DNA of 64,000 bases from the NCBI RefSeq assembly GCF_036556685.1, contig NZ_CP140614.1, positions 2,170,001-2,234,000 on the forward strand, read 5' to 3'. Positions 37,696 to 53,662 of the stretch are shown piece by piece. The notes below the pieces were generated by a model. That model was not told the origin of the DNA and did not search any database. It was given only the letters and a program-made list of their open reading frames with translations. The DNA comes from Sulfurospirillum sp. 1612. Lineage in GTDB: Bacteria; Campylobacterota; Campylobacteria; Campylobacterales; Sulfurospirillaceae. The stretch's first letter is position 1. Each line of letters begins with the position of its first letter. Made by a program: the position numbers and the translations under genes.

Positions 37696-38427
37696 AAACT
37701 CTCTTTTGTTTCGAGGTTTCAAAAACAATTCTTTAAAACGCTCATTGGCATACGCCTCTATATCTTTTTCCAATTGTTTGTAATTATTAATATATTCATC
37801 GGCAAGTGGTGTCAGTTTGCTACCACTATTCTCACCTCCTCCTTGTTGGGATTCCACTAATACATCATCTAAATTTTTTTGAAGTATTTTAACATGGCTC
37901 CAAGTTTTTTTATAACTCATTTTGAGTTTTTGTGCCGCTCCTGCAATTGAGCCTTCTTGTTCAATCAATTCTAAAACTTCTGTTTTTCCCTTACCAAAGA
38001 GTAATTCTCCTTCTTGGTTTTCAATCCAAGTTTTTGTCTTGACATAGAGTCTGCTGCGTCGTTTTTCTTTAAAACATCCCAACTCACAATAAGTCACATC
38101 CATATTTTTCTCTTTGATAGTCCCACGGATTTTTTTAAGTCCGATACCTCCGGCTGCACTTCTGGCATCTTTGCAGCGGATTCTGTTTTTGTCATCAATA
38201 AAAGGTGCCATTTTTTCCAAAGCCACCTCACTAAATTCACCCGTACCTTTTAAATTACCAAATTGACCGAGCTCACACCCTGCGATGCGAATACCCAACT
38301 CTTTTGCCTTATCCCCAACTTCTAAGATAGGAGTTTTTGTTTTGGCTGAGATTTTAAAAGCATCTTTGCAATCCAACTTTCCTTCTGTATTGAGATTTTC
38401 TTTGATAATTGTTTCAAGATTCGACAT
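37687..38427 (-). CDS. modE: ModE-like Mo/W regulator with an N-terminal duplicated cysteine domain
   Basis: A 246-residue protein. The C-terminal part (from about 140) is the ModE winged helix: GKTEVLELIEQEGSIAGAAQKLKMSYKKTW and LVESQQGGGENSGSKLT. No Mop/TOBE molybdate-binding domain follows. Instead residues 1-125 hold two related repeats, each CKDA then about 30 residues on CELGxF (Cys20/Cys51 and Cys85/Cys114, plus Cys118). C. jejuni also has a single ModE-like protein lacking the Mo-binding domain, encoded beside fdh genes, that controls both Mo and W transporters. The repeats may bind a metal or iron-sulphur cluster; this is inference. Confidence 0.87.
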   Translation of the reverse strand: MSNLETIIKENLNTEGKLDCKDAFKISAKTKTPILEVGDKAKELGIRIAGCELGQFGNLKGTGEFSEVALEKMAPFIDDKNRIRCKDARSAAGGIGLKKIRGTIKEKNMDVTYCELGCFKEKRRSRLYVKTKTWIENQEGELLFGKGKTEVLELIEQEGSIAGAAQKLKMSYKKTWSHVKILQKNLDDVLVESQQGGGENSGSKLTPLADEYINNYKQLEKDIEAYANERFKELFLKPRNKREFKD

Positions 38428-39211
38428 GGATTCTCTCCGGATTTCTATAAATATTCATGCTCTGTCCTCTGACAAAACCAATCAGCGTTAAGCCAAATTT
38501 TGCAGCAATATTCACCCCTCTACAAGTAGAAGCGGTGCGAGAAGCTAGAATCGGAATTTGATGCATCACCGCTTTGGCCACCATTTCGGAACTCAATCTG
38601 CCACTGACCATCAAAAAAGCACGATTGACACTGTGTCCGGCTAGTAAAGCTTTGCCAACGGCTTTATCGATAGTATTGTGTTGTGCAATATCTTCACCGA
38701 TAAAATAGATCGAATCATCAATGTGAATTTTTGCCGTATGCACGCACCCGGTTTGCTCATAAAGAGGGCATTGGGTGTAAAATTCTCCCATCTCTTTGAA
38801 AAGGAGGTTTGCATCGATATAAAAATCATCCTGCATCACTTTGGCTTCGATGGATTTGAGTGAAATATGCGTACTTGCCCCACGACCACAGCCGCTGACA
38901 ATCACGCCTTCTGTGTTTAATTTATCACTACTCGCTTCGTTGATTGTTGCTTTGATATCTGCTTTGTAGATTTTGGTATCGATATCAGTGATTTCAAACT
39001 GTGTGATATCTGAAACTTTTTCAATAATATTTTCACTAATTAGGTAACCAATACTCAATTCTTTTAGATCTGTAGGTGTCGCCATCAAAGAGACAATGCG
39101 TTTGCCATTGATATTAATATCCAACTTAATTTCACGAATCACCGTATCATCGGTTTCAAATTTTTTATTATTTTTAATTTTCGTCACTTGTGTTGTAAAA
39201 ATTGGTCCCAT
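38414..39211 (-). CDS. fdhD: Formate dehydrogenase accessory sulfurtransferase FdhD
   Basis: A 265-residue protein needed to sulfurate the molybdenum cofactor of formate dehydrogenases. It contains SLMATPTDLKELSIGYLISENII and a C-terminal FDH-specific block ILASRTASTCRGVNIA with FVRGQSMNIY. The catalytic loop, CGVC in E. coli, here reads SGCGRG (Cys108), so the second Cys of the pair is missing. It overlaps the modE start by 14 bases, coupling the two genes. A probable Mo/W operator is 19-39 bases before its start. Confidence 0.9.
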   Translation of the reverse strand: MGPIFTTQVTKIKNNKKFETDDTVIREIKLDININGKRIVSLMATPTDLKELSIGYLISENIIEKVSDITQFEITDIDTKIYKADIKATINEASSDKLNTEGVIVSGCGRGASTHISLKSIEAKVMQDDFYIDANLLFKEMGEFYTQCPLYEQTGCVHTAKIHIDDSIYFIGEDIAQHNTIDKAVGKALLAGHSVNRAFLMVSGRLSSEMVAKAVMHQIPILASRTASTCRGVNIAAKFGLTLIGFVRGQSMNIYRNPERIHVES

Positions 39212-39310: not shown

Positions 39311-40234
39311 TTAAATCTTCCCCTCTTTTTTTAATTTTTTATAATAAGATGAGTGAAGATGTGCCACTTCGTCTTCTTCTTTGTAGCCATCTTTCATACT
39401 TTGCAATGAACCCTTTATCGCAAATACTGACATATAAATATGTGTCAAGAAAAGTGCTAAAACGGCAAAGCCTAAAATATTATGAACTAATGCACTCAAT
39501 CGCAACAGATCAATTTGCGTCATATCTAAGCTTTTAGCAATTCCCAAATCAAAGTTTTGGAAAAACATCGCAGCGCCAGTTATAATCATGACAATACCAC
39601 CAAGCGTTGCAATCCAAAACCACATCTTCTGTCCTGCATTGAATTTTCCGGCAGGTACCTCAATTTTCTTTTTACTTAAATATCCTCCTACAATGAAAAG
39701 CCACTTGACATCATCAAAGGTAGGAAGCATCTCTTTGAACCAAGATATAAACATCGGGATCACAGATATAATAAAAACCGGTGTAAAATATCCATGCAAT
39801 TCTCTCGCGATTCGAATCGGCTCACCACCGCCTAAGTATTTTCCAAAAACCATCATCAAACCCGTTGGGATTAATACAACAAAAGCAACAGCTGCAACCC
39901 AATGGACAATCCGATTAAAAAGCGTAAAAAAGTAAATCCTTTTTCCGCCATGTATAAAGCGTTTTGCTCCAATAATTAGGTAATGCAGTAAAAATACTAA
40001 AGGCACTCCGATAAGAATACCCAAAAAAATGACCTTAAAATAGTGCGCTTGAAGATAGGTAAATAAATCTCCAAATTTTTGATAATCCAAGATATTTGTA
40101 ATCATTTGGGAAGAGACCAAAAGGTCTCCTCCCTGACTTGGAGCGATATCTTTAGATGCCAATGGTACTTTGCCCGTTAATTCTCTTGCATACAAACCCA
40201 GTATACTAAGCGAGAGCAATATTAATTTTTTCAT
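39311..40234 (-). CDS. fdhC: Formate dehydrogenase cytochrome b subunit
   Basis: A 307-residue membrane subunit that passes electrons from the periplasmic FDH to menaquinone. It has a signal peptide, a first helix around 50-80, then a diheme cytochrome b core with helices carrying histidines (FNRIVHWVAAVAF, ELHGYFTPVF, RLSALVHNILGFAVLALFLTHIYMSVF). Last gene of the fdhA-fdhB-fdhC group, as in Campylobacter. Confidence 0.92.
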   Translation of the reverse strand: MKKLILLSLSILGLYARELTGKVPLASKDIAPSQGGDLLVSSQMITNILDYQKFGDLFTYLQAHYFKVIFLGILIGVPLVFLLHYLIIGAKRFIHGGKRIYFFTLFNRIVHWVAAVAFVVLIPTGLMMVFGKYLGGGEPIRIARELHGYFTPVFIISVIPMFISWFKEMLPTFDDVKWLFIVGGYLSKKKIEVPAGKFNAGQKMWFWIATLGGIVMIITGAAMFFQNFDLGIAKSLDMTQIDLLRLSALVHNILGFAVLALFLTHIYMSVFAIKGSLQSMKDGYKEEDEVAHLHSSYYKKLKKEGKI

Positions 40235-40246
40235 GACATCCCTTCA

Positions 40247-40846
40247 TCAATTTTTATACGCAACGCTCCAGCCATTTGGAACCGACTGAACCCCATGTCC
40301 CCTTGATGCTACACGCTCACGGTAGATTTTAGAAACATCTTCACTATCCCCAACGAGTAGTGCTTTGGTAGAACACATCGCCGCACAAACAGGAACTTTT
40401 CCCTCTGCAATACGATTTTGTCCATAAAGCTCACGCTCTTTGGCAGAATTTGTAGGTTCAGGTCCCCCTGCACACATTGTACATTTATCCATCACACCGC
40501 GAGTGCCAAAAGCACCATCTTGTGGAAATTGTGGCGCGCCAAAAGGACAGGCATAAAGGCAATAACCACAACCAATACAAGTATTTTTATCATGAAGCAC
40601 AATTCCGTCTTCTCTAATATAAAAACAATCCACCGGACACACTTGCTCACAAGGAGCATCCGTACAGTGCATACACGCCATTGACGTGGAGAATTCTTTA
40701 CCTTCTACCCCTTCATTAAGGGTGACAACTTTCCGTCTGCTGATACCAACAGGGAGCTCATGTGCCTCAGCACATGCAATGCTACATCCGTCACAATCAA
40801 TACATCTGGCCTCATCGCAATAAAATTTCATTCTTGCATAACTCAT
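40247..40846 (-). CDS. fdhB: Formate dehydrogenase iron-sulfur subunit
   Basis: A 199-residue ferredoxin-like subunit with four [4Fe-4S] motifs: CIDCDGCSIACAEA, CMHCTDAPCEQVCPVDC, CIGCGYCLYACPFGAP, and CTMCAGG with later cysteines (VPVCAAMCSTKA). It lacks its own export signal and is probably carried out with FdhA by the TAT route. The start at 40846 has AGGGGG upstream; the ORF extends to 40951 into fdhA but without support. Confidence 0.92.
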   Translation of the reverse strand: MSYARMKFYCDEARCIDCDGCSIACAEAHELPVGISRRKVVTLNEGVEGKEFSTSMACMHCTDAPCEQVCPVDCFYIREDGIVLHDKNTCIGCGYCLYACPFGAPQFPQDGAFGTRGVMDKCTMCAGGPEPTNSAKERELYGQNRIAEGKVPVCAAMCSTKALLVGDSEDVSKIYRERVASRGHGVQSVPNGWSVAYKN

Positions 40847-40856
40847 TTCACACCCC

Positions 40857-43688
40857 CTACGCTTTTTCGATGCGGCATAATCCGCCTTTAGTTTCAGGAA
40901 GCTGAGTGATGATGTCATAGCCGTAATTTGTAACCGTATTGGCGCTTTCACCTATCGCATAAGGTTTTGTACCTTCTGGGTAATGCGAGCTTCGATCCTG
41001 CCCTTGAAAATATCCGGCAAAGTGCATCGGTAAAAAGATTCTATCAGCACTAACACTGTAAGAGTATCTGGCTCTTACTTTCACTTTTGTTCCCTCAGGA
41101 GAGTGAACCCACATCATGCTACCATTTTTGATACCATGATCAGCGGCTAAGTCTGGATTAATATCACAGAACATTTCCGGTGTGAGTTTCGCAAGATATT
41201 TTGATGCTCTTGTTTCCATCCCGGCACCATTCATATTGACCAATCGTCCTGTGACTAGGTTGATCGGGAATTTTTTACTCCAATCCTCTTTGGTTTGCTC
41301 ACTGATATATCTGGTGTCAACCCTAAAGTGATTTGGTTTGTCTGGATAACTTGGGTACTCTTTGACCAAATCTTCTCTTGGAGAGTGAAGTGGTTCTCTG
41401 TGCATTGGTATTTTATCCGGGAAGTTCCATACAATCGCACGGGCTCTTGCATTTCCATATGGCGCAATGCCCCGTTCCATACATTTTTCTGCGATAATAT
41501 TACTCGTATCTACTTTCCAGTTCGCACCGATTCGTTTCTTTTCATCTTCTGTCAGTGTAATACCGAGTACTTTTTCGATGTTTTTGGCTGTGATTTCAGG
41601 ATATCCGTTTGGATTAGCAGAATCTTTAGGCGCTGAGCCTTTAGATGCTAACAAATCATGACCATCATGTTCTAGTCCAAATCGATTTCTAAATCCCATA
41701 CCACCCTCAGCAACGGATCTGTGAATATCATAAAGGATTGGGCTGCCGGAGTGTGTTTCTGTCCAACAAGGCCAAGGCAATCCATAATACTCACCCTTCA
41801 TCGGACCGTATCCTTTGAGCGTGATTTGGTCGAATTTATCCCAGTTTTCTTGGTGTTTTTTGAGTCGTGCTGATGTCCATCCTGTGAGTCCGATTGTTTT
41901 GATGATTCGGGCAAACTCATCGGTGGCATCTTCTGGCCATTTGAATGTTTTCTTGTTTTCTTTCATCAACATACCCTTGGTGAGTTGATCGTAAAAACCT
42001 AATCTTTTGGCCAATTCAAACATCACTTCTTCATCCGGTTTGCTTTCATAAAGTGGATCCACTACCTTACTACGCCATTGTACCGATCGGTTGGTTGCAG
42101 TAACGGAACCGCTGGTTTCAAATTGAGTCGCGGCAGGAAGTAAGAAAACATTGTCTTTTTTGTCTGTTAAAACCGCAGCTTCATTGACAAAAGGATCGGC
42201 TAAGACGATCAATTCAAGATTGTCCAATGCTTCTTTGACTTTTGCTTGTTGTGCAATTGAGGTGATACCATTTCCCATAACAAAAAGTGCTTTGAGGTTC
42301 GTACCGCCATTGTGGATTGCATCTTCACCTGGATTTCCAGCCAATACTCCAGCCCACCAACGTGCAAGCGAGAAGCCTTTGGCATTCATCATCTTTTTAT
42401 TTTTAAATCTACTTTTGACCCATTCGTAATCAACACCCCATGATTTACAGAAGTATTTCCATGAGCCATCACTTAGACCATAGTATCCAGGAAGTGTATC
42501 TGCAAGACATGCAAAATCTGTAGCACCTTGGACATTATCATGACCTCTTAGAATATTGGTTCCACCACCTTCTTCACCCATGTTTCCAAGAGCAAGTTGG
42601 ATAATCGGAGCCAAACGAGTATTAGAACTACCGATTGAGTGTTGTGTCAAGCCCATCGCCCATACGAGAGTTCCCGGTCTTGATTTTGCATAGACTCTTG
42701 TAATTTGCATTAATTTTTCAGCTGGAACGCCTGTGACGTTGGCAACAACATCTGGTGTCCATTTTTTGGCTTCTTTTCTAATCTCATCCATGCCATACAC
42801 TCTGGCATCGATAAATTCTTTATCATCCCAACCATTTTCAAATATGATATTGAGCATACCATACATAAATGCGATATCCGTACCCGGTCGCACTCTAGCA
42901 TATAAATCTGCTTTGGCTGCTGTTCTGGTATATCGAGGATCGATAACGATTAATTGTGCATTATTTCTCTCTTTAGCAATTAGGAAATGTCTAAAACCAA
43001 CAGGATGGTTTACCGCAGGATTGGCTCCAAATATAATGATCGCTTTTGCATTCTGAATATCATTCAATGAATTCGTCATAGCGCCATAACCCCATGTATT
43101 CGCCACACCGGCGACTGTTGTGCTATGTCAAATTCGAGCTTGGTGATCGATGTTATTAGTTCCAAACATGGCAGCAAACTTTCTAAAATAATAAGCTTGC
43201 TCATTGCTAAATTTCGCAGAACCTAGGAACATTGCTGCATCCGGTCCACTTGTTTTTCTTAAATCTTCCAATTTTGTGGCTATTTGATCAAGGGCACTAT
43301 CCCAACTGATACGCTTCCACTGACCATTTTCTCTTTTCATTGGATGTTTAAGTCTCACTTCGGCTCTGACATTATCAATCATGTCAGCACCCTTACAACA
43401 ATGTCCGCCCAAACTAACGGGGTGGTCTTGCGCCACTTCTTGTCTTACCCAAACACCGTTTTGTACTTCTGCATTAATACCACATCCTACTGAACATGAG
43501 GTACATACTGATTTGACAAACTTCGATCCAGGGAAAGGATTTTTGATCTCTTCCTCCGTTGCCGGTCTCATCACGCCTTCGCTTGCAAATGCACTGGTAG
43601 CACCAAATGCACCGGCGACAGCTGCCATTTTTAAAAATGACCTACGACCGATTCGGGTGGAGAGCGCTTTTTGAGTTGTGTTTTCCAT
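40857..43688 (-). CDS. fdhA: Periplasmic formate dehydrogenase catalytic subunit, selenocysteine and TAT signal
   Basis: A molybdenum or tungsten bis-MGD enzyme of about 943 residues. The TGA at 43128-43130 lies in frame in DHQARI-Sec-HSTTVAGVANTWG, and the frame continues to 40857; read as a stop, it splits the gene into 43128-43694 and 40857-43106. The N terminus has a twin-arginine signal (GRRSFLKMAA) and a [4Fe-4S] site (VCTSCSVGCGI with CCKG later). It oxidises formate in the periplasm for respiration with FdhB and FdhC. ATG 43688 with GGAGAC eight bases upstream is preferred over TTG 43694. Confidence 0.95.
43100..43114 (-). promoter_or_regulatory. SECIS-type hairpin of fdhA
   Basis: The minus strand reads TCGCC-GGTGT-GGCGA starting 13 bases after the TGA. 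Same geometry as the two fdhF hairpins, with a compensatory A/T to C/G change within the stem. Confidence 0.8.
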
Positions 43689-43706
43689 ACTCAATGTCTC
43701 CTATTT

Positions 43707-44031: not shown

Positions 44032-44817
44032 TTATAGAATATCTTTAAATTCTTCAGTGGTCGATGAATCTTCGATACTACACGAAGAGACTAACGAATC
44101 TGCTTCTCGTTTTGCTCTATTCTCAGCCCGTCTTTTTGCTTCCACGTCACTAATATATTCACACGATTCAGTCGCCGTGGCTACGACAGGTTTTTCTTTT
44201 GGTAATGGTTTTTTTACATCAAAATACAAGCGCTCAAATTCTAAAAAAGCATTGAGTACAACAGCCAAAGATCGATACGCATTGGCTTTGTCATGTTCAT
44301 AAAGGTTTACGATAAATTCATCGAAAAATTCATTGATAATTTCGGTAAACAGACAATGTTGTACTGTCTCATATTGGGTTTCACCTTTTAAAATCAATTC
44401 AATTAATTCGTGCATAAATGTTACCAAAAATCCCACGCTGTCTTCATTATCATAATAATTTGCTTCGTTTCGTCTAATTTTGGTTTTTCCTAAAAAGTTT
44501 TTAACCGCAACGCGTTTCTTTCCGCTCTCCACCCCTTCATCATAATACGAGGCCGTATCTCGCAATGCGCGAGAATCTGGGTCATTAAATATATAATCAT
44601 ATTCATCGCACAACCCGCTCTCATGGTAGGTTTGAATAAATTCCTTGATCTCCTTAAGGGCTTCGCATGAGTTTTCATCAAGTGGATTAGAAATCATTAC
44701 ATCTAAAACTTCCAAAAGCCCATCAAACCGGTTTGGACGTGTTGTAAATACTAACATTTTGCTAAAAAAGCCATAATAAAGTGATCGTGCTTTGTAAAGA
44801 GATTCTTTTTGTGTCAC
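44032..44817 (-). CDS. TorD/DmsD-family chaperone for formate dehydrogenase
   Basis: A 261-residue all-helical protein. The start (GTG, behind AAGGAAGC) gives MTQKESLYKARSLYYGFFSKML; the middle has YYDEG, and MHELIELILKG is the TorD-like region. Members bind the TAT signal of one molybdoenzyme until the cofactor is inserted; here the client should be FdhA. C. jejuni has a similar gene (FdhM) at the same place. The last 60 residues are a charged tail of unknown role. Confidence 0.8.
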   Translation of the reverse strand: MTQKESLYKARSLYYGFFSKMLVFTTRPNRFDGLLEVLDVMISNPLDENSCEALKEIKEFIQTYHESGLCDEYDYIFNDPDSRALRDTASYYDEGVESGKKRVAVKNFLGKTKIRRNEANYYDNEDSVGFLVTFMHELIELILKGETQYETVQHCLFTEIINEFFDEFIVNLYEHDKANAYRSLAVVLNAFLEFERLYFDVKKPLPKEKPVVATATESCEYISDVEAKRRAENRAKREADSLVSSCSIEDSSTTEEFKDIL

Positions 44818-44962: not shown

Positions 44963-45000
44963 CTAGATAAACAAATAGATACTAGGTAAACAATTGTTTA
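44963..45000. promoter_or_regulatory. Palindrome TAAACAATTGTTTA with direct repeats, probable regulator site
   Basis: CTAGATAAACAA (44963-44974) and CTAGGTAAACAA (44982-44993) are direct repeats 19 bp apart. The second joins TTGTTTA to make a perfect 14-bp palindrome (44987-45000). The five-N4-five form TAAAC-aatt-GTTTA resembles Crp/Fnr-type sites, for example NssR of Campylobacter (TTAAC-N4-GTTAA). The binding protein is unknown. Confidence 0.5.
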
Positions 45001-45080
45001 TCAATACAGTAAATCTACCATATCTAGGCTTAGACGAGAATTGGACTAAAAAAGTAACAGAATTGCTTAAATATGCCTTA

Positions 45081-45101
45081 AATATTCAAATTTTGCATAT
45101 T
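45081..45101 (-). promoter_or_regulatory. Probable ModE-type operator upstream of the torD-fdhA operon
   Basis: Plus strand AATATTCAAA, one T, TTTGCATATT is a palindrome with a single mismatch and differs from the perfect site at 2836 by three bases. It lies 264 bases before the torD start. Confidence 0.6.
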
Positions 45102-45144: not shown

Positions 45145-46830
45145 TTATTTGTTTTGCTCTTCTTCTCTAACTTTTTCTAGATAAGAATTTAGCACCACTT
45201 TAGGCTTACAATCAGCACAGCAATAAAGGCTTCTGATTTTGACCTCATCATCGCCAAATATCGGTGTCATGATATCTGCAATTTTTTTAATGGCTTTGAC
45301 CGTAGCAAACTCTTTGCCGCACTCAACACAGGCGAAAAGTTCGTCTTTTGCCATCACTTTTTGAGTAAACCAATCGGGTTTGAGGCTGATTTCATCTTTG
45401 ACGACTCTCAAACAATCGGCTTCTGGACAGGTTACCTCACAATAGCCACAATCGGTACAGATTGAGGCATTGAATCGTAAGCTATTGTCTTCAGGATGCG
45501 CGGTGAGGGCTCTCACATTACAAGCGCCTACACAACTCAAACACAGTGTACAATTGGCTTCATTGATCTCAACACGACCATAATGGACATGTTCGCCAGT
45601 CTTGACGACACCCAAATCATCCTCACCCACAAGATGCGCCAGTCTCGCAGAAAAGATTTCACGTTTTTTTAAATCTTTTTCATTAATACCATACTGACAT
45701 TCGCTCAATGATTCAAGTGCACCAAAAGCATCAGCTAATGCTTCTGAATCTTGACAAACATAAATCGCTTTTTTGTGATATTTTTTTTCAAAAATTTCAT
45801 TGACCATCATGATAGCATCTCCTGTGCCTTTGGAGATAAAATCTGTATAGAAAATCACCGGATTTCCACTCGTTTGCAATAGTGTCATGAAATGTGCCTC
45901 ATGAAGAAACTTTTCACCTGCAATCATAAAAGGAAGAACCTGTTTTGGCAAATCAACACGAATGGATTCAAGCGCCATCTTTTCAGGGATTATCAAAGCA
46001 ATTTGATCGCGAAAATAACTACTTACTTCACTAAAAGCAACGCGAGGCATCTGCGTATAATCAAGCGCGCCACTAGGACACACACTCACACATCCCCCAC
46101 AACCGTGGCAATCCACATGAGAAAAGACCAAATGCTTGCTCTCATCCTCTTTTAAAATCGAAACCGTTGGACAGACTTCAGCACACTTGCCACAGATCTC
46201 TTCGCGTCGCTCATGATACTGACAAATCGAGGAGTCATAGGTGACAAAATTTTTGTATTTATAGCCTTCTAAATTCTCTTTTACCTTCTTATAGATAGTA
46301 TCAATATCTAAGACATTAGGATCAAAAGTCCCACTTTGCTTCATCGCAAATACGGGAGCATCAGGCCAGATAATTTGATCGCATTCCAAAGCATATTCTT
46401 CTGCATCTTTTAAAATTGTCACATTGAGTTTGCCAATATGTCCATTGACATCTAAAATCATCTCCGGATTTAAAGTAATGCTCATCAAGGCATCATCTTC
46501 AAGAAAAGGTGCATAAATATCACTTTTTTCATCTTGCGTTACAATCAGTAACTTATTGCCTACGGGCTCTTCATAATCAACATATTGTGCTAAATCAAAG
46601 TTATCCGCTCGTATATCATAGAGCTTTTTGACGTTAGTAATTTTTTGGCGTATGTCATCTTGTGAATGTTTTAAATAGAAGTTAATTTCCGGTGCATAGA
46701 TTTGTGTATTTTTAATATTTTCATTTGAGACTAAATACTCTTGCTCATCCTGCTCATGTGCTACGGTGATACTCTCATCAAGAGGAAAATCAAGCTTTTC
46801 TTTAGAGAGAAATAGATATTCATTTTGCAT
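45145..46830 (-). CDS. Cytoplasmic polyferredoxin of formate dehydrogenase loci
   Basis: A 561-residue protein with four ferredoxin-type cluster motifs (ICGKCAEVCPT, CHGCGGCVSVCPSGAL, CTLCLSCVGACNVRAL, CTDCGYCEVTCPEADCL) and a C-terminal pair of CxxC sites (CVECGKEF and CCADC). Residues 1-190 have no cysteine motifs. No signal peptide is seen, so it is cytoplasmic. Proteins of this kind are found upstream of fdh genes in Campylobacterota; the electron partners are not known. Expressed divergently from the sensor operon. Confidence 0.8.
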   Translation of the reverse strand: MQNEYLFLSKEKLDFPLDESITVAHEQDEQEYLVSNENIKNTQIYAPEINFYLKHSQDDIRQKITNVKKLYDIRADNFDLAQYVDYEEPVGNKLLIVTQDEKSDIYAPFLEDDALMSITLNPEMILDVNGHIGKLNVTILKDAEEYALECDQIIWPDAPVFAMKQSGTFDPNVLDIDTIYKKVKENLEGYKYKNFVTYDSSICQYHERREEICGKCAEVCPTVSILKEDESKHLVFSHVDCHGCGGCVSVCPSGALDYTQMPRVAFSEVSSYFRDQIALIIPEKMALESIRVDLPKQVLPFMIAGEKFLHEAHFMTLLQTSGNPVIFYTDFISKGTGDAIMMVNEIFEKKYHKKAIYVCQDSEALADAFGALESLSECQYGINEKDLKKREIFSARLAHLVGEDDLGVVKTGEHVHYGRVEINEANCTLCLSCVGACNVRALTAHPEDNSLRFNASICTDCGYCEVTCPEADCLRVVKDEISLKPDWFTQKVMAKDELFACVECGKEFATVKAIKKIADIMTPIFGDDEVKIRSLYCCADCKPKVVLNSYLEKVREEEQNK

Positions 46831-46998
46831 GGTTGCGTTACCTTTTGGTCAAAATTATTTGACTAGATTGTAATTTTTTTTGAATTAATACCTCCTTAAT
46901 TAAAATACTAATTTTATCATTTTATATCCATATTTTGCAGTAAAGATTAAAAAAATTTCAGATATAATATTTTCAAAATATCAAGAAGGATCACCGTT

Positions 46999-48159
46999 TT
47001 GGTCAAAAAAAGTTATATATTAGTCGCCCTAATTTTTGTGACAATACTGATAGGAACGTTATTCTCTTATACGCATGATCCATTAAAAGACCAAAATGAA
47101 ATCCGGCTCGGTGCCTCTTTGCCGCTCAGCGGCATCAACCAAAACTTAGGCAAAGAGATTGTCATAGGGGCTGATACCTATTTTCAAAGCGTCAATGCAA
47201 CCGGAGGCGTACACCATAAAAAAATCAAATTCATCTACTATGATGACAAATATGAACCAGAGATCACCTGGAGTAATACAAAGCGTCTCATTGATCATGA
47301 TAGCGTTTTTGCGCTTTTTGAATTTGTCGGAACGCCCACGACCAAAAAAATCCTACCCCTTGTGGAAAAACGTGGCATTCCTTTTATCGCCCCTTATACT
47401 GGTGCCTCGTTTTTACGCAATCCCAAATTTAAAAATATTATTAATTTTAGAAGTTCGTATCAAGAAGAAGTTGATGCCCTCATTGGATACTTGACCAAAA
47501 ACAAAAAGTTTTCAAAATTTTCAATTTTCTATCAAAATGATGATTATGGACGCGAAGGATACATTGCACTCTTAAAGGCATTGAAAAAAAGAGGCTTAGC
47601 GCTTGTCAGCGAAGGTACCTACAAGAGAAATACCCTCTTTGTGAAGCAAGCCCTCTATGATATCAAAGACAAAAAGCCCGAAGCCGTCATCTTAATCGGT
47701 TCGTATAAACCCACGGCCCGTTTTATCAAAAAAGCGAGAAAAGACAAGAGTTTCAAATCTGTCATCTTCTGTCCCATCTCTTTTGTCAATGCCAATGCAT
47801 TGATGGAAGAATTACACAATAATGGGCACAATTTACTCTTTTCTCAAACCGTACCCACCTATACTAACAACACCGCACAAGCACAAGAGTATTTGAAACT
47901 ATTGCAAACCTTTCATCCGCATCATCCCCCAACGTTTGCCTCATTTGAATCTTTTTTGGCAGCTAAAGTTTTAGTCAAAAGTATTGAAAAAATCAAAGGG
48001 AATATCACCACAAAAAAGTTTCTTGAAAATATCAAGACACCCCAAGAACACACACTTGAGGATGTCAATGTTCACTATAAGCATTCGCAACTACTCAACA
48101 GTGTGTATCTACTCAAATTCCAAGATGGTATCTTTAAAACAATTTGTGAGAAAAAATGA
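46999..48159 (+). CDS. Periplasmic binding protein of the Leu/Ile/Val type, sensor component
   Basis: A 386-residue protein of the type I periplasmic-binding fold (Peripla_BP_6): IRLGASLPLSGINQNLGKEI, FFxYYDDKYEPE-like strand, FEFVGTPTTKKILPLVEKRGIPFIAPYTG. An N-terminal hydrophobic segment is a signal or anchor with no obvious cleavage site, so it may stay attached to the membrane. The start is TTG at 46999 behind AAGGA. No ABC permease or ATPase is nearby; the stop overlaps a histidine-kinase start (ATGA). That suggests a ligand-sensing partner of the kinase, as in AioX-AioS-AioR systems. Ligand unknown. Confidence 0.82.
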   Translation: MVKKSYILVALIFVTILIGTLFSYTHDPLKDQNEIRLGASLPLSGINQNLGKEIVIGADTYFQSVNATGGVHHKKIKFIYYDDKYEPEITWSNTKRLIDHDSVFALFEFVGTPTTKKILPLVEKRGIPFIAPYTGASFLRNPKFKNIINFRSSYQEEVDALIGYLTKNKKFSKFSIFYQNDDYGREGYIALLKALKKRGLALVSEGTYKRNTLFVKQALYDIKDKKPEAVILIGSYKPTARFIKKARKDKSFKSVIFCPISFVNANALMEELHNNGHNLLFSQTVPTYTNNTAQAQEYLKLLQTFHPHHPPTFASFESFLAAKVLVKSIEKIKGNITTKKFLENIKTPQEHTLEDVNVHYKHSQLLNSVYLLKFQDGIFKTICEKK

Positions 48160-49757
48160 ATGCTTTTGTGACGTATATCAATAAAATCTTAGAAAAAATC
48201 ACCTTTACAAGTAAGACCAAGATATTAATTGGAACAACCTTTGGAGGGACGATTATCATCGGATTTTTGATGTTCATTTCGATTTTTGCTCTAAAATATG
48301 ATTTTGAAGTCTTATTTCAAAATTATACCGCCCCGCAGGTGAAACTCGAAGAAATCAAAGATATTTATCAAGTCAATATCAAAGAAACACTCAATGCCAT
48401 CGAAAATCAACAAATTAGCAATCAAGAGGGCATTGAAGTCCTACTGATTGCCAAACAAATTATTAAAAAACAGTGGAAGGAATACAAGCGGGGCACAGAA
48501 AAATCCATCGGAGGATTGCCAGAATTTGCCAATAATTGGCTTAACTTCTTTTTGCGCCCGCACAAAGATAACAATAACAATGAATTTACAAACCGCATCA
48601 TCAATAATATAGAAGAAAAAATTCACAGCATCGATGAAAAAACCACCATCTTAATCACCTTACTCAAAAACAATACCAAAGAAATCACCCACGATCAAAA
48701 AATCAATGATATTATTTTGGAGACCAACTCCATTAGTATCTATCTCTCGAGTCTCATTACGAACAATTTACAACATGCTATCTCCAAAAAAGAGGCCAAT
48801 GACCAGCTTTTTAGCACGAGTACCTATATGTTAATCCTGCTCATCAGCCTCACTTTTGCCTTTGTTGTCTTAGTCTCAATCATCATCATTAACAACTTTA
48901 AACACCTCCACTATACCCTAGAAGAGAATGTCATGAGAAAAACCAAAGCACTGCGTCAACTCAATAGTTCTCTGGAGAGTCGTATCAAAAAAGAGGTCGA
49001 AAACAGCAGAAAGCGCGATAATATTATGTTTCAACAAGCTAGGCTCGCTAGGATGGGTGAGGTATTACAAAATATCGCCCATCAATGGCGCCAACCGCTT
49101 GGCACTTTGATGATGATCGTGCAAAGTTTTCAGAGCAAGTTTTATGCAGGGAAACTCGATGTCGAATTTGTTGACAGTCGTGTTGAAGATGCGCTAAAAG
49201 TCGGCAAAAATATGTCGGATACCTTAGAAGATTTTAGAAACTTTTTTATGCCCAATCGTACCAAAGAGATTTTTGATGTCAAAGAGGCCATCAATAAAGC
49301 CATCAGCCTCTCAAAATATCAACTCAAAAAAGAGTACATAGAACTCACAAGCAATCGTGCGGGTTCCATCCAACTCTACGGTTTCAAAAATGAGCTGATT
49401 CATGTGATTTTAAACCTCATTAGCAATTCCAAAGATGTCCTCACATCACAACAAAATCTAGAATCCAAAAAGATACGCATCATCTTAAAACAGACACGCA
49501 AAAACATCCTCATCAGCGTCATCGACAATGGCGGCGGCATAAAAGATGATATAATATCTAAGATATTTGATCCCTATTTTACCACAAAACACAAGAGTAT
49601 TGGCACGGGAATCGGCCTTTATATGTCGAAACAATTAGTAGAAAAACATATGAATGGAAAAATCAGTTGTAAGAATATTATCCATCGATTTGGAGAAGAC
49701 AAATTTTTTCAATGCGCGATGTTTAGTGTAGAACTACCACTCAAAGGAGAGGCATAA
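48156..49757 (+). CDS. Sensor histidine kinase partner of the binding protein
   Basis: A 533-residue kinase. Helix at about 25-45, a periplasmic helical domain to about 220, a second helix at about 222-245, then a coiled coil. The phospho-acceptor block is ARMGEVLQNIAHQWRQPLGTL (His in HQWRQPL, usual in Campylobacterota). ATP-binding boxes: ELIHVILNLISNSKDVL, VIDNGGGI and FDPYFTTKHKSIGTGIGLY. It overlaps both neighbours by a few bases, so binding protein, kinase and regulator are translated together. Confidence 0.9.
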   Translation: MNAFVTYINKILEKITFTSKTKILIGTTFGGTIIIGFLMFISIFALKYDFEVLFQNYTAPQVKLEEIKDIYQVNIKETLNAIENQQISNQEGIEVLLIAKQIIKKQWKEYKRGTEKSIGGLPEFANNWLNFFLRPHKDNNNNEFTNRIINNIEEKIHSIDEKTTILITLLKNNTKEITHDQKINDIILETNSISIYLSSLITNNLQHAISKKEANDQLFSTSTYMLILLISLTFAFVVLVSIIIINNFKHLHYTLEENVMRKTKALRQLNSSLESRIKKEVENSRKRDNIMFQQARLARMGEVLQNIAHQWRQPLGTLMMIVQSFQSKFYAGKLDVEFVDSRVEDALKVGKNMSDTLEDFRNFFMPNRTKEIFDVKEAINKAISLSKYQLKKEYIELTSNRAGSIQLYGFKNELIHVILNLISNSKDVLTSQQNLESKKIRIILKQTRKNILISVIDNGGGIKDDIISKIFDPYFTTKHKSIGTGIGLYMSKQLVEKHMNGKISCKNIIHRFGEDKFFQCAMFSVELPLKGEA

Positions 49758-50431
49758 TGCAAAAAAGAAATCTTGATTTACTCGGGAACTTTAACGTACT
49801 GTATCTTGAGGATGAGCCCGAACTTCTCAAACACACATTTTCAGCCTTAGAAGATTTTGTCGGCACGATTTTTCCGGTACCTACCTGTGAGGAAGCCCTC
49901 AAAGTTCTCAAAACCAACAAAGTCGATATTATCATCGCCGATATCAATCTCAAATATGAAAATGGTATCGAATTTTTAAGATCTTTGAAATACGAACATG
50001 GCTATGAAATACCGGCCATCTTAACCACCGCCTTTACCGATACAGAATATTTACTTGATGCAATTAAACTCAAGATTGATGATTATATTGTCAAACCCAT
50101 CAGCATCAAAGATCTTCTCAATTCCATTCACGATACACTGTTGCCTAAGATGCAACAAAAAGAGATTGAACGCTCTTATAATATGATTAAAACCATCTCT
50201 GCGATTATTGATGGGAAACAAATCGAATTAATTAAGTTTATCATCAAAAATCTCGATCATGATAATATGTTTAACTACTCCTATGGCGATATTATGGAAA
50301 AAGTCGATGTGAGTAAACCCACGGTTATCAAAGTGTTTCGTCAACTCGCTGAAAAAGAAATTTTGGTAAAAATCCAAAATAAAAAGTATTTTTTTGACGA
50401 AAACAAACTACCCAATCCAAACGAGGAATGA
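49757..50431 (+). CDS. Response regulator with an unusual winged-helix output domain
   Basis: A 224-residue regulator: receiver domain 10-125 with phospho-acceptor Asp62 (IIIADINLKYENG) and YIVKPISI, then a C-terminal helix-turn-helix (about 150-215) reading GDIMEKVDVSKPTVIKVFRQLAEKEILVKI and a beta wing with NKKYFFDE. The output domain looks like MarR/RepL-type winged helices and not like OmpR, NarL or NtrC outputs. Its TGA ends one base before selA starts. Target genes are not known; selAB and the divergent polyferredoxin-fdh genes are candidates. Confidence 0.85.
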   Translation: MQKRNLDLLGNFNVLYLEDEPELLKHTFSALEDFVGTIFPVPTCEEALKVLKTNKVDIIIADINLKYENGIEFLRSLKYEHGYEIPAILTTAFTDTEYLLDAIKLKIDDYIVKPISIKDLLNSIHDTLLPKMQQKEIERSYNMIKTISAIIDGKQIELIKFIIKNLDHDNMFNYSYGDIMEKVDVSKPTVIKVFRQLAEKEILVKIQNKKYFFDENKLPNPNEE

Positions 50432-50432
50432 C

Positions 50433-51776
50433 ATGAAGAATAAATTTCGAGAAATCCCAAAGATAGATAAAATAGCACAAGATCCAATCTTTGAGGGATT
50501 AAACCAAAAACTTATACTTAAAATAGCCAAAGAGAAGATTGAAGCATTACGCGAAGCCTTGCGATCTGGAACAATAGAAAAAATTGACCAATCAGAACTT
50601 TTAGAAGCGGTCAAAAAAAGCTATCATGATCTCTTTTCTCCTTCACTCAAGCAGCTCATCAATGCAACAGGAGTCATCTTGCACACCAATATGGGCAGAA
50701 GCCTCATCAGTGAAACGTTGATAGAGAGAGCCAAACCAATCTTGTGTAACTACTCAAACCTCGAATACGATCTTGAACACGGTTGCCGTGGTGAGCGATA
50801 CGAACATGTCAGCCGTCATATGATCAATCTCTTAGGCGTGGAAGATGTCCTTGTGGTCAACAATAATGCCAGTGCGGTATTTTTAATCCTCAATACCTTC
50901 GCCAAAGGGAAAGAAGTCATCGTTTCCCGAGGTGAACTGGTCGAAATTGGCGGCAGTTTTAGGATTCCTGAGGTGATGAGTCAAAGCGGAGCCATCTTGC
51001 GAGAAGTAGGTGCCACAAACAAAACAAAACTCAGCGATTATGATAAGGCACTCAGTGATAATAGTGTCATGATTATGAAGGTACACAAATCCAACTTTTC
51101 CATCGAAGGATTTAGCGAAGAGACTCCTTATGAAGAGATTCAAAATCTCGCACAAACCCATCATCTTTTAGATTACTATGATTTAGGAAGCGGTTATATT
51201 CCCACTTTGCCTTATCATCTCGGTCAAAAAGAGCACTCCTTGCCACAAATTCTCAAATCCAAGCCCTCCTTGATTAGTTTTAGTGGTGACAAACTCTTTG
51301 GCAGTGTTCAAGCGGGGATTATCGCAGGGAAAAAAGAGCTCATCAGCGAACTCAAAAAAAATCAACTTCTTAGAATGTTGCGCGTCGATAAGATTACGCT
51401 CGCACTCTTAGAAGAGACGATTAAATCCTATCTTAAAGAGGAATTTGAAGACATCCCGACATTAGACATGCTCTTTACCGAGGTCCAAACACTAAAAGAG
51501 CGGGCGCTCAAAGTGCAAGAAGATATCGGAATAACACGATGTGACGTGATTGACAGTACGACCGTCATGGGAGGGGGCACGCTGCCAAATCGTGAATTTC
51601 CAACCGTCGCATTGCACATCAAAGGGAAAGCTGAAGTTTTAGAGAAAGAGTTTAGAAATCACCATATCATCGGACGCATCGAAAATGATAAGTTTTTACT
51701 TGATTTTAGAAGTATTTTACCTAGAATCGATGCCATATTAACCCAAAAGATCAAAGCGATCTTAACAATCAAATAA
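50433..51776 (+). CDS. selA: L-seryl-tRNA(Sec) selenium transferase
   Basis: A 447-residue PLP enzyme that turns Ser-tRNA(Sec) into Sec-tRNA(Sec) using selenophosphate. The PLP lysine is Lys287 in ISFSGDKLFGSVQAG; other blocks are INATGVILHTNMGRS and VNNNASAVFLIL. The start at 50433 has GAGGAA upstream, one base after the response-regulator stop, so it is in one transcript with the three-gene sensor. Length is slightly below E. coli SelA (463). Confidence 0.95.
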   Translation: MKNKFREIPKIDKIAQDPIFEGLNQKLILKIAKEKIEALREALRSGTIEKIDQSELLEAVKKSYHDLFSPSLKQLINATGVILHTNMGRSLISETLIERAKPILCNYSNLEYDLEHGCRGERYEHVSRHMINLLGVEDVLVVNNNASAVFLILNTFAKGKEVIVSRGELVEIGGSFRIPEVMSQSGAILREVGATNKTKLSDYDKALSDNSVMIMKVHKSNFSIEGFSEETPYEEIQNLAQTHHLLDYYDLGSGYIPTLPYHLGQKEHSLPQILKSKPSLISFSGDKLFGSVQAGIIAGKKELISELKKNQLLRMLRVDKITLALLEETIKSYLKEEFEDIPTLDMLFTEVQTLKERALKVQEDIGITRCDVIDSTTVMGGGTLPNREFPTVALHIKGKAEVLEKEFRNHHIIGRIENDKFLLDFRSILPRIDAILTQKIKAILTIK

Positions 51777-51826
51777 TATGTCTTTTGAGACATTTGTATG
51801 ACCAATATTAAAGAGAGATAAGCAAC

Positions 51827-53662
51827 ATGAAATACATAATAGTAGGAACTGCCGGTCACGTAGACCATGGAAAAACCGCACTCATCGAAGCGATGACTGG
51901 ATTCAGTGGAGACAGTTTAGAAGAAGAAAAACGTCGAGGTATCACGATAGATTTGAGTTTTTCACATCTACAAAATGACGATATTAATGTCGCCTTTATT
52001 GACGTTCCCGGTCATGAGAAACTTTTGAAAAATATGATTGCGGGGGCTTTTGGTTTTGATGCCAGCTTGGTTGTTGTTGATGCCAATGAGGGATTAAAAC
52101 CTCAAACCATTGAACATCTTGAAATTCTCAATCTATTACACGTCAAAAACATCATCATCGCACTCACCAAAAGTGATCTTGCAACAGATGAAATCCTCAC
52201 GACGCGAGAAAGCGAAATCAGAGAATATATCAAAACCCTTCAAAATCTAGAGATATTTGACCTTTTAAAAGTGAGTATTTATGATCAAGATTCGATACAA
52301 AAACTCAAAGAGTCTCTATTCTCCTTGCCCCTTTTAGAGAAAGAGAGTAATGGATTATTTCGCTACTATATCGACCGATCTTTTTCACTCTCAGGCGTCG
52401 GACAAGTCGTCACCGGCACCGTGCTTGATGGCAGTATCGCAGTCGGCGATAAAATCTTCGCACCAGAGCTCAATCAAGAATTTAAAATCAAAAATTTACA
52501 AGTCCATGACCACGATGTCCCCAATGCCCTCAGTTCTCAAAGAACGGCTATCAATCTACAAGGCACGTTGAAATCACCACTCAAACGTGGTACCCTTTTG
52601 TGTAAAAAAGGGTTTATTAAAGGGTTTAATAATGTTGATGCTTGGGTTGAAGGCATCGCTTCTCACAAAATCAAGCATAACACTTCAGTGAACCTTTTCA
52701 TTGGGACCAAACAAGTCGAAGCTAAAATTCTTCTCTTAGAAGGGGTGGAACCCATCGAGCGGGGATTTGCGACACTTTGTTTTAAACAGAAACTTTTTTT
52801 GGTACATAATGAGCCTTTTATCCTCTCAACAAGCGGCAGAACTATCGGGGGTGGGCGCATCTTGAACCCCATCAACGATCCTTTGAAAAAACGCGTCAAA
52901 CTCGAACTCCTCTCAGCCCTACGCGATGATGATTTTGATCGTGCCTTTTCAATACTCTCATCGACGCATAAACGTGGTTTTGGACTCATCTCCTCAAATC
53001 AACGCTTTGGGCTGAGCCATGATGAAGCCATCGCAGTGGCTGATAGACTCGATGATGTATTTGTAGATGAGCAAGGATTGGTCATTTATCCGACTTTAAT
53101 CAAAACGGAATTAAAACAAATCATCAAAAATATCTATGCAAAAAATCAATATGCCCTCCTCTCACCCGCCTCTTTATCGTTGAAAATCAAGTGGGCAAGT
53201 GTCTCCCTTTTACAAGATATCTTGACCACGTTATGTGATGAGGGACTCTTGAAATTGGAAAATGGAATTTATAAGAATGCCGAAATCAAAATTGATGACA
53301 TCAATAAACTCATTGAAGATAAAATATTTGAGACTTTAGAGAAATCCGATATCACCCCCGATGCGCCTTATAATATTTATGATGCATTGGATATTGATAA
53401 AAAAATTGGAGATAATGCCCTCAAAAACCTCACAAAAGCACGAAAAGTGGTACGACTCGCACACAATCTCTTTGTCACCTCACAAGTGCTGAGCAAAATC
53501 GTCGCAAAAATGCGAGACATTATGCTCAAAGAGGGCTATATTGATATCAGCTCTTTTAAAAAACATTTTAATATCAGTCGTAAATATCTCGTTGCGTATC
53601 TTGATTATCTTGATGAATTTGATGATATCAATAAGCAAGACAACCGAAGATCACTCATCTAA
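51827..53662 (+). CDS. selB: Selenocysteine-specific elongation factor
   Basis: A 611-residue GTPase that carries Sec-tRNA(Sec) to UGA codons followed by a SECIS hairpin. G motifs: GTAGHVDHGKTALIEAMTG, the DVPGHE switch and TKSD. The C-terminal half (from about 350) has the winged-helix repeats that bind the hairpin; the last reads ISSFKKHFNISRKYLVAYLDYLDE. Close to E. coli SelB in length (614). Fifty bases after selA, same strand. tRNA-Sec is not found in the window. Confidence 0.95.
   Translation: MKYIIVGTAGHVDHGKTALIEAMTGFSGDSLEEEKRRGITIDLSFSHLQNDDINVAFIDVPGHEKLLKNMIAGAFGFDASLVVVDANEGLKPQTIEHLEILNLLHVKNIIIALTKSDLATDEILTTRESEIREYIKTLQNLEIFDLLKVSIYDQDSIQKLKESLFSLPLLEKESNGLFRYYIDRSFSLSGVGQVVTGTVLDGSIAVGDKIFAPELNQEFKIKNLQVHDHDVPNALSSQRTAINLQGTLKSPLKRGTLLCKKGFIKGFNNVDAWVEGIASHKIKHNTSVNLFIGTKQVEAKILLLEGVEPIERGFATLCFKQKLFLVHNEPFILSTSGRTIGGGRILNPINDPLKKRVKLELLSALRDDDFDRAFSILSSTHKRGFGLISSNQRFGLSHDEAIAVADRLDDVFVDEQGLVIYPTLIKTELKQIIKNIYAKNQYALLSPASLSLKIKWASVSLLQDILTTLCDEGLLKLENGIYKNAEIKIDDINKLIEDKIFETLEKSDITPDAPYNIYDALDIDKKIGDNALKNLTKARKVVRLAHNLFVTSQVLSKIVAKMRDIMLKEGYIDISSFKKHFNISRKYLVAYLDYLDEFDDINKQDNRRSLI

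Follow-up and report, generated by a model that had tools for sequence, protein, structure and literature searches.

A binding-protein two-component system that probably co-controls formate dehydrogenase and selenocysteine synthesis in Campylobacterota

As is generally known, trimethylamine N-oxide respiration in E. coli is governed by TorT-TorS-TorR, in which a type I periplasmic binding protein, a kinase with a helical periplasmic part and a response regulator act on the operon of a respiratory molybdoenzyme with a TorD-type chaperone. It is equally general knowledge that the AioX-AioS-AioR system of arsenite oxidation combines a binding protein with a histidine kinase and a response regulator, the binding protein being a dedicated sensor without a transporter. 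Here we describe a system of this kind that lies between the genes of a respiratory formate dehydrogenase (FDH) and those of selenocysteine (Sec) synthesis in a 64-kb stretch of DNA (the window, G000:C1:2170001-2234000) from a complete 2.38-Mb Campylobacterota genome. Judging by the gene order, its conservation, a promoter palindrome and the co-distribution of this palindrome with the system, a periplasmic-ligand two-component system probably co-controls a regulon of the respiratory FDH and Sec synthesis. The kind of system is known; this module and its set of targets have, to our knowledge, not been described. The system forms the first part of an array of five genes:

46999..48159, + strand: membrane-anchored type I periplasmic binding protein (PBP; Peripla_BP_6, E=1e-43), putative ligand sensor subunit, TTG start
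48156..49757, + strand: sensor histidine kinase (HK; HATPase_c, 3.5e-18), ATGA overlap with the PBP gene
49757..50431, + strand: response regulator (RR; Response_reg, 2e-19, and RepL-type winged helix), one-base overlap with the HK stop
50433..51776, + strand: selA, L-seryl-tRNA(Sec) selenium transferase (TIGR00474, 523 bits against a cut-off of 268 bits)
51827..53662, + strand: selB, Sec-specific elongation factor (TIGR00475, 319 bits against a cut-off of 242)

These genes run head-to-tail; the ATG of selA at 50433 lies one base past the RR stop, and selA and selB are separated by 50 bp. The original prediction had described them as five genes in order with overlaps, "fused in operon". The open reading frames are real and the coordinates right, including the single base between the RR stop and the selA start, and the genes are co-linear; a fusion at the protein level does not exist.

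The PBP is modelled with confidence as a type I fold (AlphaFold2 pLDDT 93.7), and its nearest structures by Foldseek are 4kv7 (TM score 0.83) and 3lop, both listed without a stated ligand. The orthologs begin with basic and hydrophobic residues that include neither a lipobox nor an AxA motif, and we read this stretch as a putative membrane anchor. No cognate permease or ATPase was found beside the PBP gene in the window, and in relatives its neighbours are the HK and polyferredoxin genes. The sole permease on the FDH side is the tungstate permease WtpB, about 11 kb away and with its own binding protein. Thus, the PBP shares the type I fold and the Peripla_BP_6 domain with the binding proteins of ABC transporters (LIV/HAAT) and lacks their permease and ATPase. 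Because of the missing partner permease, the anchored N-terminus and the nearly constant adjacency to HK, it looks like a dedicated sensor subunit, as had been proposed from the absence of a permease nearby. The start codon is TTG in all complete PBP orthologs of the Sulfurospirillaceae type (46999 in the window; L007-L021, L024, L026 and L027), which suggests a conserved low translation of the sensor subunit.

HK consists of a transmembrane helix, an all-helical periplasmic domain, a second transmembrane helix, a DHp domain and an intact CA domain. The kinase core is standard (Foldseek match HK853), and the long helical periplasmic part is modelled at moderate confidence (pTM 0.45). The phosphoaccepting H309 lies in NIAHQWRQPL, and HQWRQPL as well as the N and G boxes are invariant in 36 sequences. 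In RR, the receiver residues D62, T91 and K113 are invariant and the output domain is a RepL-type winged helix. HK and RR therefore possess what defines a two-component pair, a phosphoaccepting histidine with an intact ATPase domain on one side and a receiver aspartate with a DNA-binding output domain on the other; phosphotransfer from HK to RR is predicted.

In comparison with TorT-TorS-TorR, the combination of a type I PBP with HK and RR in the absence of a transporter is the same. However, the binding protein here is a membrane-anchored one of the Peripla_BP_6/LIVBP-like kind. HK stops at residue 533, past the CA domain, and with neither receiver nor HPt it is not a hybrid kinase. RR has a RepL-type output domain instead of the OmpR-type of TorR, and the genes under control would be those for FDH and Sec biosynthesis. 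Since the hybrid domains of TorS and an OmpR-type regulator are absent, we do not file the system as a member of the TorTSR family, but it is most likely a TorT/TorS/TorR-like periplasmic-ligand phosphorelay. The likeness to AioXSR, which had been put forward originally, holds for the dedicated sensor without transporter; it is the looser analogy, as binding-protein family, target and output domain all differ.

Among systems of related bacteria, PceS-PceP of Sulfurospirillum tetrachloroethene respiration comes from the same bacterial family, has a winged-helix regulator and uses sites at respiratory promoters that overlap the -35 element (PMC7755780). In contrast to the system described here, PceS has seven transmembrane helices and no binding protein, and PceP is of the OmpR-type and binds CTATW-N17-CTATW (PMC7755780). 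BumS-BumR of C. jejuni is a Campylobacterota two-component system that responds to small carboxylates, but BumS senses via a PAS domain, acts as a phosphatase and has no binding protein, and the paper does not mention FDH (PMC11796366). Because of the PAS sensor and the missing binding protein we rejected BumSR as a homologous system. FdhTU of C. jejuni affects FDH expression in a related bacterium via the use of selenium; in the part of a review that deals with them, these proteins are accessory proteins of selenium acquisition or use that act post-transcriptionally and not a two-component system (PMC6682613).

The PBP gene is divergent from a polyferredoxin-FDH block, as originally stated:

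46831..46998, intergenic, no strand: divergent promoter region between the polyferredoxin and PBP genes, 168 bp
45145..46830, - strand: polyferredoxin-like protein (polyFd), first gene of the FDH block
44032..44817, - strand: TorD/NarJ-like FDH chaperone (Nitrate_red_del)
40857..43694, - strand: fdhA, Sec-containing FDH catalytic subunit, in-frame TGA at codon 189 of the open reading frame as called
40247..40951, - strand: fdhB (NCBIfam FDH3_beta)
39311..40234, - strand: fdhC, FDH gamma (cytochrome b) subunit
38414..39211, - strand: fdhD, sulfurtransferase

Beyond fdhD follow a ModE-like regulator and the tungstate transporter genes wtpA/ATPase/wtpB, and still further left in the window lie selD (31600) and yedF. 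The tRNA-Sec gene is located outside the window (G000:C1:2142969, 63.4 bits). With selA, selB, selD, tRNA-Sec and a selenoprotein gene with in-frame UGA (fdhA), the Sec decoding set of the genome is complete. Apart from one tRNA, no Rfam elements were found in the window.

The gene order is widely conserved. A search with HK yielded 21 other Campylobacterota loci; RR is directly followed by selA in 20 of them, and by selB as well where the contig reaches that far. The same 20 loci have PBP and HK upstream, and polyFd-torD-fdhA is divergent wherever that side is present. The gaps between RR and selA are short or overlapping in this Sulfurospirillaceae arrangement, the value of 570 bp for L027 being due to a fragmented open reading frame. 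The remaining locus, L025, is rearranged, and its PBP-HK-RR triad is divergent from selD-selA-selB. Because it recurs in 20 of 21 homologous loci of other genomes, the five-gene arrangement is far beyond chance. The original prediction had made its proposed link dependent on this conservation, and the order is kept, with the triad of L025 still beside the sel genes.

We extended this analysis to 397 Campylobacterota genomes, 126 of which gave HK matches and 260 selA matches. The labels of the families (f1, f3, f7 etc.) are anonymous and the taxon names attached to them are inferred. In the window's own family, selA is present in each of the 20 genomes that possess the HK ortholog, and the two genomes that lack this ortholog lack selA as well. 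Direct adjacency of RR and selA is found in f1, f12 and part of f3. In f7 (Arcobacteraceae-like), f8, f12, f4 and f5, the triad is again divergent from polyFd-torD-fdhA, and selD, selA and selB are usually 2-20 kb away or further. HK is present in 34 genomes of f7, of which 32 possess selA, and only G260 has selA without HK. The Campylobacter-type loci L107-L110 show the same divergent pair, polyFd facing selA-selB, but the triad is missing in between, and neither polyFd nor selA is preceded by the palindrome; these genomes lack PBP and RR. The HK tree broadly follows the families, groups the HK of the window with those of Sulfurospirillum and of metagenome-assembled genomes of vent Campylobacteraceae, and sets apart a sister (paralogous) PBP-HK-RR system. 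In genus g20 (Campylobacteraceae-like), HK-RR-selA-selB is retained, while the palindrome is lost (L099-L101) and PBP is strongly diverged (L099:5825-6889, L100:10210-11241) or missing (L101:7231-8742), an apparent stepwise decay of the sensor.

An alignment of the intergenic regions between polyFd and PBP revealed the consensus palindrome TGGTAAA-N6-TTTACCA, downstream of a TTTAAG-N5-TTTAAG repeat and a TACAAT-like -10 element of polyFd. The corresponding elements of the window are:

46846..46865, no strand: palindrome TGGTCAAAATTATTTGACTA, candidate RR operator at about +1 of the polyFd promoter
44984..45003, no strand: second palindrome AGGTAAACAATTGTTTATCA, upstream of the torD-like gene and the FDH genes, 16.8 bits
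46867..46872, - strand: putative -10 (TACAAT) of polyFd
46963..46968, + strand: putative -10 (TATAAT) of the PBP-HK-RR-selA-selB operon
46884..46900, - strand: direct repeat aTTAAG-N5-aTTAAt upstream of the polyFd -10, which may overlap a Campylobacterota -35-like element
45066..45082, - strand: perfect TTTAAG-N5-TTTAAG upstream of the torD-like gene, the only one in the window (0.02 expected)

Genomes were searched as a whole by pattern, selected loci by matrix. The first palindrome is the sole match to GGTMAAN6TTKACY in the 2.38-Mb genome, and the genomes of relatives contain one to three GGTAAAN6TTTACC sites. Almost all loci that possess the system have the palindrome 13-24 bp from the polyFd start, and the spacing N6 is fixed. 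The matrix was built from polyFd promoters only and applied with a threshold of at least 14 bits, with expectations from dinucleotide shuffles (background: 9 matches in 597 kb). In genomes that possess the system and detached sel genes, 18 of 21 selD promoters (0.03 expected) and 6 of 23 selA promoters reach this threshold. Among the loci without the system, none of the tested promoters does so (polyFd 0/7, selD 0/4, selA 0/11), and one fdhA upstream region, in L110, reaches 14.6 bits. In L025 the palindrome lies between PBP and selD. In L086, where polyFd is relocated, it is found both at polyFd and in the intergenic region on the fdhA side, before a gene for an FDH with cysteine (Cys) in place of Sec. 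Related palindromes occur 62-87 bp upstream of the PBP gene of the sister system (16.6 bits in L077 and 11.9 in L117; weaker in L076 and L062 with 8.5 and 6.7), as expected if the regulators of this family read them, which we take as supportive only. A shared operator that is present with the system and absent without it, as a regulon should have, is thus found with the exceptions of L065, L066, L096, L099-L101 and L110. An apparent palindrome within the PBP genes of L065 and L066 was discounted, as it encodes the conserved stretch TVKEILP.

The TTTAAG repeat shares the half-site TTTA(A/C)N with the palindrome, and its spacing of 5 stands out among spacings of 0-12 (2.11 mean mismatches against 3.88 in shuffles). 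We keep it only as a possible second element, in view of its resemblance to the general -35 consensus of C. jejuni, TTTAAGTNTT (PMC7755780). The genome-wide search for the repeat plus a -10 element gave 3 matches, no more than the reversed control, so this pattern is not specific. Scanning with a promoter consensus for a selA promoter inside RR had no resolving power, with 39 matches against 21.7 in shuffles across the coding region.

The window contains three different FDH-type catalytic genes, all on the - strand (40857-43694, about 540-2783 and about 13421-15577). In each of them a TGA in frame marks the Sec site, with conserved ARI/ARL-U-H surroundings; only the gene at 40857-43694 has the palindrome upstream.

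Two Arcobacteraceae genomes, G298 and G373 (loci L105 and L106), retain all three genes of the triad, still divergent from polyFd-FDH, but gave no match to selA. In their FDH genes, the Sec codon is replaced by TGT (Cys). Since both genomes lie in different parts of the HK tree, two independent losses of Sec are suggested. Because these genomes keep the triad without selA and with a Cys-FDH, and because the divergence from polyFd-FDH also persists where selAB has left the operon, the triad appears to serve FDH first. FDH is therefore the likely primary and more widely kept partner, and control of the Sec genes would be one arm of an FDH-plus-Sec regulon. It had been proposed that a ligand, e.g. 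formate, a selenium oxyanion or an electron acceptor, could control the Sec machinery or the FDHs. Gene order and the shared palindrome tie the system to both; Sec synthesis as the main target, however, gives way to FDH, and the partly supported proposal of ligand control of Sec synthesis widens to ligand control of an FDH regulon that includes it.

In such a regulon, the anchored type I binding protein would capture a small ligand and act on the all-helical periplasmic domain of HK, and phosphate would pass from H309 of HK to D62 of RR. The winged helix of RR would then read TTTA(A/C)N half-sites, chiefly TGGTAAA-N6-TTTACCA, at the promoters of polyFd and torD/fdh; this binding we infer from the distribution of the sites. 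The Sec genes may join the regulon in two ways, in the Sulfurospirillaceae-like arrangement by read-through into selA-selB, and in Arcobacteraceae and relatives through copies of this palindrome ahead of selD and, in some cases, of selA. Activation is the more likely sign of control than repression. Formate, or some other small carboxylate connected with the use of FDH, is a tentative candidate for the ligand; selenium is the less likely signal, given that the system persists in genomes without Sec. That an extracytoplasmic ligand acting through the anchored binding protein switches the selenoenzyme FDH together with the UGA-recoding genes selD, selA and selB across much of Campylobacterota has, in our view, an even chance of being correct.

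As far as we know, the Sec machinery of bacteria is usually regarded as constitutive or as tuned by selenium and translation feedback. Conserved gene order and shared operator would put it under a ligand-sensing two-component system, in one regulon with the enzyme that is its main client. If this is true, transcriptional control in response to a signal governs the use of the 21st amino acid. The short DNA sites are testable, and genomes that lost Sec and kept the sensor, or lost the sensor and kept Sec, serve as natural comparisons.

Several observations speak against co-control of FDH and Sec synthesis by this system. The palindrome is missing at polyFd in L065, L066, L096 and L099-L101 despite the system, so either the site or the regulator has drifted there, and in the window genome neither selD nor the two other Sec-FDH genes of the window carry it. 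The loci without the system are few and mostly from Campylobacter, and the co-distribution of palindrome and system is therefore not fully independent of phylogeny; an unrelated regulator of the same distribution could bind the palindrome. The TTTAAG repeat may not be specific to RR because of its resemblance to the C. jejuni -35 consensus. Moreover, Fdh2 of S. multivorans, which apparently corresponds to the window locus (matched by gene content only), has been called constitutive (PMC4585668), so that any response of FDH may be modest.

It seems unlikely, though worth serious attention, that control extends no further than the polyFd/FDH block and the system's own genes, and that selA-selB are passengers without regulatory meaning, located downstream because FDH is the main customer of their products. 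The association with FDH is indeed wider than the adjacency to selAB, the two genomes with Cys-FDH and without selA retain the system, and adjacency alone needs no regulation, because polyFd faces selA-selB in the Campylobacter-type loci with no system between. However, passengers would not be expected to bear the palindrome once relocated, as do selD and, less often, selA, nor does this explanation fit the close RR-selA adjacency kept throughout the Sulfurospirillaceae arrangement. Quite unlikely is a palindrome that belongs to another regulator, e.g. a selenium-, molybdate- or redox-responsive repressor, with the two-component system using other sites or targets. Its overlap with about +1 of the polyFd promoter is a repressor-like position and several loci have the system without it. 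On the other hand, none of the polyFd, selD and selA promoters tested in loci that lack the system contains it, and related palindromes precede the sister PBP gene; both findings speak against another regulator. Furthermore, L082 has ModE-like and FdhD-like genes beside selAB, and no palindrome was found there.

The ligand might also be a selenium species, so that the system would match the output of Sec enzymes to the selenium supply and, in some Arcobacteraceae, choose between Sec- and Cys-FDH, which we consider improbable. The palindrome at selD, at selA and, in two genomes, at a YedF/DsrE-like gene would suit such a sensor, and some Arcobacteraceae do hold both Sec- and Cys-FDH (PMC2147049), as also seen in the loci studied here. 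Nevertheless, the complete system persists with a Cys-FDH in the two genomes without selA, and in L086 the palindrome precedes the Cys-FDH gene, the opposite of a simple Sec/Cys switch; L086, L105 and L106 thus disfavour a simple selenium sensor or switch of this kind. It is very improbable indeed that the PBP serves an unlinked amino-acid-type ABC transporter and stands beside the two-component system by accident. Its closest solved relatives are ABC-type proteins of the Leu/Ile/Val-binding family, but the missing permease, the anchor without lipobox or AxA and the co-inheritance with HK and RR across many genera all contradict an accidental neighbourhood.

In S. multivorans, the Fdh2 set (FdhA2, FdhB2, FdhI2, the chaperone FdhX1 and FdhD) has been quantified at 9.1-9.3 in cells grown on formate and at 8.0-8.9 in cells grown on pyruvate, with FdhD at higher abundance on formate (PMC4585668), which makes a modest formate response of Fdh2 possible. 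The locus tags right after FdhX1 (SMUL_2875) are transposase genes, SMUL_2876-2877 (PMC7755780), and the FDH/sensor locus of that strain may be disrupted by an insertion. Full-text literature searches, which reached few subscription papers, gave no description of a link between the sensor system and Sec or FDH genes, in line with the original prediction, whose author knew of no described system of this kind. The part consulted of a review on the regulation of respiration in Campylobacterota names no two-component system for FDH (PMC6682613); measured against this part, the system described here is a candidate FDH regulator for the phylum.

Further palindromes were found near genes of other function. 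Short YedF/DsrE-like genes have one 83-90 bp upstream (L140:6081-6422, - strand, and L142:2688-3032, + strand). A cluster of a transglutaminase-core gene, a MerT-like membrane protein gene and a gene with a heavy-metal-associated domain (L085:8136-9838, L086:6419-8116 and L142:754-2449, all Arcobacteraceae) lies near FDH, selD or yedF-like genes, with the palindrome about 150 bp upstream; it may belong to the regulon and serve the uptake of a metal or of selenium.

The sister triad of the window's genome is located at G000:C1:201980-205388 (L062:6981-10389, + strand), with a PII-type gene downstream. The PBP gene of this triad extends over two reading frames, due to either a recent frameshift or a sequencing error, and is a single frame in the relatives L077 and L076. 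An HK-RR pair close to the FDH-linked one but without PBP or FDH neighbours occurs amid unrelated genes (L063:6761-8942, L064:7536-9723 and L102:947-3137) in a genus where selA was not found, possibly as a repurposed or orphan sensor.

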